From assembly GCA_029637525.1 (NCBI GenBank), contig CP072660.1, positions 1,451,612 through 1,515,611 of the forward strand: DNA of 64,000 nt. Reading direction: 5' to 3'. The notes under the pieces are model-generated. The model did no database searches and was not told where the DNA came from. It worked only from the letters and a program-made list of their open reading frames with translations. Both the position numbers and the translations under genes were made by a program. Shown in pieces: positions 16,066-42,980 of the stretch. The DNA comes from Desulfurococcaceae archaeon MEX13E-LK6-19. Lineage in GTDB: Archaea > Thermoproteota > Thermoprotei_A > Sulfolobales > Desulfurococcaceae. How positions within the stretch are numbered: position 1 is the first letter of the stretch; each line of letters opens with the position of its first letter.

Positions 16066-16677
16066 CTACACAACCTCCATTACTAGTTCAAACCCAATAG
16101 TAGCACTAGCACGTTGCCAATAAATGTCAGCTAGTACCTCTACCACATATCTTCCTTTAACGGCATTGTAGGTGTATACCTTGAGAACGTAGATATGGTC
16201 ACTAACATTATTTAAAACAATATGTATGCCGTTAAAAGAGTAGTTGGTTTTATATCCCTCATAGTAGCCACTTATCATCTCTCTAGTCCCATTAACTCCT
16301 ATACTATTCAGGAAAACCTTCAAAGTATAGTTTGTTGTCTTGAAGAAACATAACGCGAAACTCTCGTTAACAACTACTCTAAAGTATATTACGAAGCTAT
16401 CATTCCTCCTAACCCTCACAAGCCATAAAGGCTCACTTCCCTCCTCCTTTACCCTAATACGCTTAGTCGAGTTCACCAACTCTACATAACCAGCTTTCCC
16501 ACAGTCAGGAGGACCAGGCTCCCAGCCAGGAGGCTCGAAGGATGGCGGGACACTTGGCTCCGAAGGCCTTCCAGCGAGATAGACGAGGAAAGAGAGAAGA
16601 CCTAGGGCAATTACCAGCGATAAAACCATTAATGGGAGATACCTGTCCTCAGAGGAGTACATTCCCTCCACCAGCAT
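16066..16677 (-). CDS. Membrane-anchored extracellular protein, unknown function
   Basis: Residues about 13-36 form one hydrophobic anchor (LPLMVLSLVIALGLLSFLVYL) followed by a Pro-rich linker (PSVPPSFEPPGWEPGPP) and a beta-rich domain with many N-x-S/T sequons (NST, NDS, NES, NYT, NGT, NYS, NVS), typical of glycosylated archaeal surface proteins. Two or three cysteines. No enzymatic motif. Lone gene. Confidence 0.8.
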   Translation of the reverse strand: MLVEGMYSSEDRYLPLMVLSLVIALGLLSFLVYLAGRPSEPSVPPSFEPPGWEPGPPDCGKAGYVELVNSTKRIRVKEEGSEPLWLVRVRRNDSFVIYFRVVVNESFALCFFKTTNYTLKVFLNSIGVNGTREMISGYYEGYKTNYSFNGIHIVLNNVSDHIYVLKVYTYNAVKGRYVVEVLADIYWQRASATIGFELVMEVV

Positions 16678-41525: not shown

Positions 41526-42833
41526 CTAACCACCATACATTTCATGAAGGTATTCGGCAAACCATGCCGGAACGCTTTCCCTACAGACAAGCACTACTTT
41601 GGCAAGATACTCAATACTACTAGCAAGTATAAAAACATTACAACTACTACAATCAGCAGGCTCCTCGATATCCAGTTTCATAAAAATATCGACAAGAGAC
41701 ATGTTCGAGGCTATAGGGAACAATAATGATACAGTGTAAATACACTCACTACTAGTCTCAAAAGAATACGTTAACATGTTATCAGCAGTGGATACTGTTG
41801 TTGAACAATTACCTGTACCAATGAATAACGGCTCATTATACTCCCCCGCAAATACTCTAGACACCACGCAACAGCCCTCTCTAAGCGGAGAAAGTTCTAC
41901 CAGCACTTCACCACTTATTCTTCTACACAAGCAAGACTTGTCCATGTTTTCAATTCTTATAACCATTTTTGTTGCGAAAAATGGTGTCTTATTGACTCTA
42001 ACTATGTAGAGTGGAGTAAACATGTAGTCTATACTAGCCATATTCTTGCCTGTGTCTCCGGATAACGGGGGCACTACAGCTATGCTAAATGTTGTATAGA
42101 TGTCGTAGAAACCAATATCAACAACTACATCTTTCCTGCTGTCAACAACTACTTTAACATCTATGGTACTGTTTCTAGTTTGCTTAGACCTCCCAGGTAC
42201 ATTGATGAACAGTATAGTCCAGTTCCCCGGGTTCACTACGTAGTCTCTCGTTGCAACAGTACAATCGTTCACTTCAACACTCAGAGATGCATTAACCGGG
42301 TCCCTAGTGTTTACTCTTAATGCAAAAGCTATCGTGTAGTTGCTACGGCTAATAATCCTAGTGATAAAACCGTCACCTATATGTACATAGAATTCTGCTC
42401 TAGCCCTATCTCCGCTCCTAGTGGTTTCTAGTCTGATAAATCTAGTCCATGGAACACCGTCCCGTACCTCGATACTACTCCTGCTAACATAGACCCTATA
42501 GTCCCTCCCTGGAACACCATACATTGTCTTGCCGTCATCGATGTAGCTGACTAAAACTCTCCATCCATGTTCATACAATGTAACAGGGTCTATAGGCATA
42601 AAATCCTTATCAACGTCAACACTTAAATCAAGGAAACCAACACGTATAATGAAGTCCCTATAGTAGTCGAAATAAGGTTCAGCAAGCAGCTCCCAATAAA
42701 CAGTAGTCGTAGGCACACCAATCGAGCTCTTTATAGGAATACACATGACTACTAGAGAGCTAGCAAGGACCAGGATGAGAAGCAATCCCATATTCTTCTC
42801 TACACGAAGCATACTACCACTAGAATAGACCAC
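41526..42833 (-). CDS. Exported protein, unknown function
   Basis: GTG at 42833; an in-frame ATG at 42812 is an alternative. Signal-like hydrophobic stretch GLLLILVLASSLVVMCIPI at about residues 16-34, then a 400-residue beta-rich domain with sequons (NAS, NYT, NRT types) and cysteines in pairs (DCTV, CLCRR, GCCVV, CSSC). Family not recognised. It is the downstream gene of the GC-rich structured element at 42870-42950, which may be its mRNA leader. Confidence 0.72.
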   Translation of the reverse strand: MVYSSGSMLRVEKNMGLLLILVLASSLVVMCIPIKSSIGVPTTTVYWELLAEPYFDYYRDFIIRVGFLDLSVDVDKDFMPIDPVTLYEHGWRVLVSYIDDGKTMYGVPGRDYRVYVSRSSIEVRDGVPWTRFIRLETTRSGDRARAEFYVHIGDGFITRIISRSNYTIAFALRVNTRDPVNASLSVEVNDCTVATRDYVVNPGNWTILFINVPGRSKQTRNSTIDVKVVVDSRKDVVVDIGFYDIYTTFSIAVVPPLSGDTGKNMASIDYMFTPLYIVRVNKTPFFATKMVIRIENMDKSCLCRRISGEVLVELSPLREGCCVVSRVFAGEYNEPLFIGTGNCSTTVSTADNMLTYSFETSSECIYTVSLLFPIASNMSLVDIFMKLDIEEPADCSSCNVFILASSIEYLAKVVLVCRESVPAWFAEYLHEMYGG

Positions 42834-42869: not shown

Positions 42870-42950
42870 GAGTGTCAGAAGAGGCCGACCACCCCGTTCA
42901 CGAGCCCGATCAACCGGGCCTCCCCGAGTAGGGGCTTCATCACTCCAGGA
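42870..42950 (-). ncRNA. Candidate structured RNA: GC-rich sRNA gene or 5' leader element
   Basis: A 70-base island at 42881-42950 is about 67% GC in an AT-rich intergenic region. Transcribed on the minus strand from a TATA box (42980-42971, TTTATAACC), it would begin near 42950. It contains GTGATGA (42943-42937) and ends with CTGA (42878-42875), matching C and D boxes, flanked by GAGTG/CACTC, which could close a terminal stem. Internal stems: GAGCCCG 42902-42908 with CGGGCCTC 42915-42922, CCCC 42922-42925 with GGGG 42931-42934; an alternative pairs GAGGCC 42881-42886 with GGCCTC 42917-42922. No clear D'/C' boxes. Confidence 0.5.
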
Positions 42951-42980
42951 TAGAATACTGTATTCTATGGAGGTTATAAA
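42950..42980 (-). promoter_or_regulatory. Promoter and inverted repeat before the structured RNA
   Basis: TTTATAACC (minus, 42980-42972) is a TATA box; between it and the RNA lies ATAGAATA-CTG-TATTCTAT (42950-42968), eight-base perfect arms. The position at the transcription start suggests an operator. Confidence 0.5.

Follow-up and report, generated by a model that had tools for sequence, protein, structure and literature searches.

The DNA at positions 42870 to 42948, on the minus strand, very probably encodes a double-guide box C/D sRNA that would pair with 16S rRNA for methylation or folding, as judged from its boxes and guides. The predicted RNA is about 70-79 nt long, with inferred ends, and has homologues in many genomes. 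Of the two readings in the preliminary description of this locus, the sRNA gene was borne out by conserved guides, C/D boxes and a covarying kink-turn geometry. Nothing in the element lies outside the known box C/D sRNA kind; the RNA family is new, the kind of RNA is known, and an unusual type is not called for. The genome carries the fibrillarin and Nop5 genes next to each other. From what is known of such RNAs, L7Ae, Nop5 and fibrillarin would bind the sRNA, which would form two kink-turns, one at C/D and an internal one at C'/D' with a short apical stem.

Read along the minus strand, on which all features of the RNA lie, the order was TTTATAAC, a 19-base palindrome, CCTGGA, GTGATGA, AAGCCCCTACTCG, GGGA, a hairpin, GTGAACG, GGGTGGTCGGCCTCTT, CTGA and CACTC. 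The GTGATGA (42937-42943) and CTGA (42875-42878) that had been called C-box-like and D-box-like are a real box C and box D, aligned and conserved in relatives. The D' guide region AAGCCCCTACTCG (42925-42936) spans the 12 nt from box C to D' and holds the core GCCCCTAC. The D' box GGGA (42921-42924) and the C' box GTGAACG (42895-42901, from RTGATGA) were both placed by alignment; both are degenerate in this member and better in relatives, where D' reads CTGA or TTGA. The apical hairpin between them (42903-42920) has six pairs here, with arms at 42915-42920 and 42903-42908, and a 3-nt bulge, CGT (42900-42902), precedes the GA of C'. The D guide region GGGTGGTCGGCCTCTT (42879-42894) combines GGTGGTC, the ancestral anchor, with TCGGCCTCTT, both complementary to rRNA. 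It fills a C'-D spacing of 16 nt; many relatives that belong to other taxonomic families have 12 nt, and guides of archaeal box C/D sRNAs are generally some 10-12 nt long. The closing pairs GAGTG/CACTC proposed earlier can be drawn on paper, but this pairing takes up part of box C. Beyond the C/D kink-turn, a canonical terminal stem was weak, a single pair forming in the strict kink-turn register.

The island of GC-rich sequence in AT-rich DNA, previously put at 67% GC, was confirmed at 64.2% for 42870-42950 on the minus strand and 65.3% for 42875-42946, against 41.4% for the window, the whole stretch of 64,000 nt that was analysed. Only 0.05% of the 72-base windows reached the GC level of 42875-42946, at two places, and 42870-42950 is the sole non-coding GC island in the window. 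The other place, 16490-16588, is the proline-rich part of an exported-protein-like ORF at 16066-16677 on the minus strand. Fold energy gave no signal against shuffles (z from +0.45 to -0.82). Since it was not below that of the shuffles, GC content and fold energy alone are no proof, and proof comes from conservation. ARAGORN found no tRNA in the GC-rich region. The Rfam scan that had been proposed gave no match of the window element to any covariance model, at the gathering threshold or at E values up to 5. The Rfam sR families (Pyrococcus-type C/D sRNAs) are the same kind of RNA, yet they left the window sequence unmatched at any threshold tried, and the new family is an annotation absent from Rfam. 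Matches to sR41, sR5 and SNORA44 in relatives were weak, below the cut-offs and on the other strand or at another place, and were rejected.

A BLAST search with a 126-base query against 60 related genomes returned several matches with 17-19 identical bases from box C onward. When aligned, they shared TGATGAAGCCCCTAC, followed by a variable hairpin, a second conserved stretch and CTGA. A sequence-only model built from ten members had matches at E <= 0.05 in 67 of 229 genomes, the weak ones being partly noise. A twenty-member model, run on 398 genomes of the phylum, had matches at E <= 0.001 in 23, most of them from the same order. About 37 sequences, including the one in the window, were inspected and kept as the RNA family set. 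Of the eleven taxonomic families in the order, at least seven contained convincing members (f1, f4, f6, f7, f8, f9 and f10 of f1-f11, with f1 that of the window), and there were a few candidates outside the order. Scanning named genomes with a pattern yielded nine matches, all of them in MAGs whose labels were Desulfurococcales, Pyrodictiaceae, Pyrolobus or Acidilobaceae. The common features were box C, the D' guide core GCCCCTAC, near-invariant across independent genera, the D'/C' motif, a D guide element GTGGTCCT or GTCCTCCC, and in most cases box D, which was not clear in a few relatives. In L082 (G190:C50), L123 (G429) and L126 (G519), GTGGTCCT was replaced by AGGGTCCCATTCG or GAGGTCCCATAG. 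A text search of the literature for the guide sequences returned none; supplementary lists of archaeal sRNAs lay outside this search and may already hold members. Two contig ends, L032 (G002:C174) and L034 (G039:C8), were nearly identical in MAGs of different families; as G002 is listed as 7% contaminated, its L032 contig is probably misbinned.

In the standard kink-turn geometry, a stem directly follows D' and a three-base bulge lies ahead of the GA of C'. The covariation check on homologs that had been suggested for this locus revealed compensatory changes in the apical stem in this register. Across 26 members, 120 of 156 cells were paired, and 15 of the 26 had at least 3 bp counted from D'. 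Stem position 1 alone showed five pair types (G-C, C-G, G-U, U-A and A-U). Slid registers mostly gave 53-104 cells, although the left +1 register with a bulge of 4 came close, with 114 cells and 19 members. The D'/C' borders were drawn by hand, and the pairing counts therefore lean toward the kink-turn model. The D'-C' interval was only 3-6 bases, the K-loop form, in G013, G031 and G030, and held a stem of 5-8 bp in others, including the window member. Archaeal C'/D' motifs are internal K-turns or K-loops, as set by the flanking helix (PMC8413462). The new family resembles the K-loop and internal K-turn motifs of Nolivos 2005, as these are cited in PMC8413462, in its C'/D' pairing and L7Ae-type geometry. 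Both forms are known there; compared with that account, the new family by itself holds both, the short loop (G013, G031) and the 5-8 bp stem. It also shares the box order C, D', C', D, the two guides to nearby rRNA, the N+5 rule and the size of archaeal double-guide box C/D sRNAs (489 in PMC4644070). It differs from them in the long D'-C' apical stem of many members, the degenerate D'/C' of the window member, and the over-long D guide in the window's taxonomic family.

The D guide core GTGGTCCT had a single perfect complement in 16S and 23S rRNA, at 673-680 of the genome's own 16S, in five of the five genomes checked. This site starts 19 bases beyond 646-653, a complement of GCCCCTAC; 2.4% of shuffled cores had a site near a D' site. 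The two sites flank a GAAAU loop, which in E. coli numbering we take to be the 690 loop of helix 23, and the target stretch was invariant across seven genomes. The guides were complementary to rRNA with N+5, the fifth base before box D, in a paired position. N+5 fell on G674 in 14 members, and on G675 in three; outside the window's taxonomic family it was mostly G674, and the D guides of relatives formed 8-11 bp with 16S 671-681. GCCCCTAC and, ancestrally, GTGGTCCT would each pair with one of the two helix 23 strands that flank the 690 loop. The pairing may keep the two strands apart during assembly, and most members that do not belong to the window's taxonomic family would direct 2'-O-methylation to G674.

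GCCCCTAC has three rRNA complements, at 16S 292-299, 16S 646-653 and 23S 259-266, and the extension of the D' guide past this core did not separate the sites 16S 646, 16S 292 and 23S 259. The D' guide of the window member formed 10-11 bp with the 16S/23S sites. Its longest duplex, 14 bp with one wobble, was at 23S 253-266, which may be a second D' target. This duplex could mean that the sRNA acts chiefly on 23S, with the 16S match secondary; so could some D guides in the window's taxonomic family (CTCCCTACTAG), which pair in phase with 23S 231-241, about 40 bases upstream (G013). We consider such a role quite unlikely, however, as the invariant D guide core is complementary to 16S helix 23 only, and members with GCCCCTACCCC match 16S better than 23S. 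The best evidence for helix 23 as the target came from a second sRNA in G039 (L129, G039:C23:42935-42993), a genome that also has a main family member, and from one in G064 (L124, G064:C5:103772-103829). Both kept the D guide AGTGGTCCT but carried the D' element TACCCCGGGA, whose complement is found only at 16S 639-648, so that the D' element had slid within the same helix.

The guides of archaeal C/D sRNAs are said to evolve fast and to share few targets. The present RNA family has retained both rRNA-pairing cores in many genera; what varied was the hairpin between them, the spacing at D and the adjoining genes. The D side drifted in the window's taxonomic family: its conserved element GTCCTCCC pairs with 16S 670-677, 6-7 bases off the N+5 register, which makes methylation at that site doubtful. 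In the window member, GGTGGTC retained 7 bp with 16S 675-681 as the anchor, and TCGGCCTCTT formed 10 in-phase bp with 16S 623-632, with N+5 at G627. Shuffles matched this 10-bp duplex in 7.9% of cases anywhere in rRNA and in 1.65% near a D' site, so that 623-632 is a likely but not certain new target. In this genome it has probably taken the place of the earlier methylation target. The family thus offers a natural series for guide drift, from in-register methylation through out-of-register pairing to a new target, and lets one ask whether selection keeps pairing or methylation.

Guides that base-pair with the two opposing strands of a single 16S helix have been described, and chaperoning was proposed for them (PMC4644070). 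The new family resembles the chaperone-type sR15 and sR17 of Nanoarchaeum equitans (PMC4644070) in that its two guides pair with the opposite strands of a single helix, h23 in this case. It differs in the distance between the strands, 19 bases instead of hundreds, and in that the pairing is conserved in many genera. A helix 23 clamp around the 690 loop, acting as a folding chaperone, might be the main role of the family, with pairing selected without methylation in the window's taxonomic family, and with lineages like this one gaining methylation targets beside the anchor. We put this forward tentatively and hold it to be rather unlikely.

The RNA ends 37 bases before the first GTG (42833) of a gene on the same strand (41526-42833; possible ATG at 42812), as previously described. 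This gene lies outside the RNA and encodes 435 aa with an exported-protein-like N-terminus resembling a signal peptide. The protein had no Pfam match and no relative in the genome collection. The other reading in the preliminary description was a cis-acting switching 5' leader of this mRNA with two conformations. The position and strand fit such a leader, and so does the pairing underlying the proposed switch, in which GGCCTCTT of the D guide pairs with GGGGAGGCC of the D'/hairpin region. This GAGGCC/GGCCTC helix, of at most 9 bp when wobbles are counted (shuffle p 0.055), does exist here and competes with the apical stem. It was not conserved: in relatives, helices of this type were no better than shuffles, and no conserved mutually exclusive helices were found. 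Family members adjoin differing genes, and both the 435-aa protein gene and the upstream nitroreductase gene were absent from the flanks of every other member examined, so that the family is unlinked to the exported-protein gene. What is conserved is the rRNA-complementary guides and the C/D boxes, not the switch. With an alternative helix confined to this sequence and relatives located next to other genes, the two-conformation leader is unsupported, and we regard it as very improbable.

The box C/D sRNA would instead be transcribed from its own promoter, starting just 5' of box C. The TATA box reported earlier on the minus strand was confirmed as TTTATAAC at 42980-42973, a full match to the TTTAWA type 37 bases 5' of box C. 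Several relatives, not all, had a TATA-type box at -32 to -37, and control windows were often equally good. A TATA-like motif is found in only about 20% of archaeal C/D sRNA genes, and most of the RNAs are processed from longer ones (PMC7994747). The C/D sRNA might accordingly be co-transcribed with the downstream gene and excised from its mRNA leader, lowering or timing the expression of that gene. The spacing between the two and the merely weak TATA-like sequence just before the ORF are compatible with this, as are published findings that longer transcripts contain most C/D sRNA genes of archaea and that 5' overlap cuts downstream expression (PMC7994747). Here, however, the sRNA and the ORF do not overlap, the sRNA has its own TATA box, and other members have different neighbours. 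Co-transcription therefore seems somewhat unlikely.

The inverted repeat noted between the TATA box and the start is present as the 19-base palindrome ATAGAATACAGTATTCTAT at 42968-42950, just before the inferred start of the RNA. Its sequence was not conserved among relatives. A regulon operator was considered and rejected: the genome has one perfect site (TAGAATACNGTATTCTA), the palindrome itself, and the four two-mismatch sites were not obviously promoters. At up to three mismatches, the pattern occurred at 56 genomic sites against 19 for the reversed control, about three-fold commoner, and the palindrome is possibly a candidate operator for some regulator.
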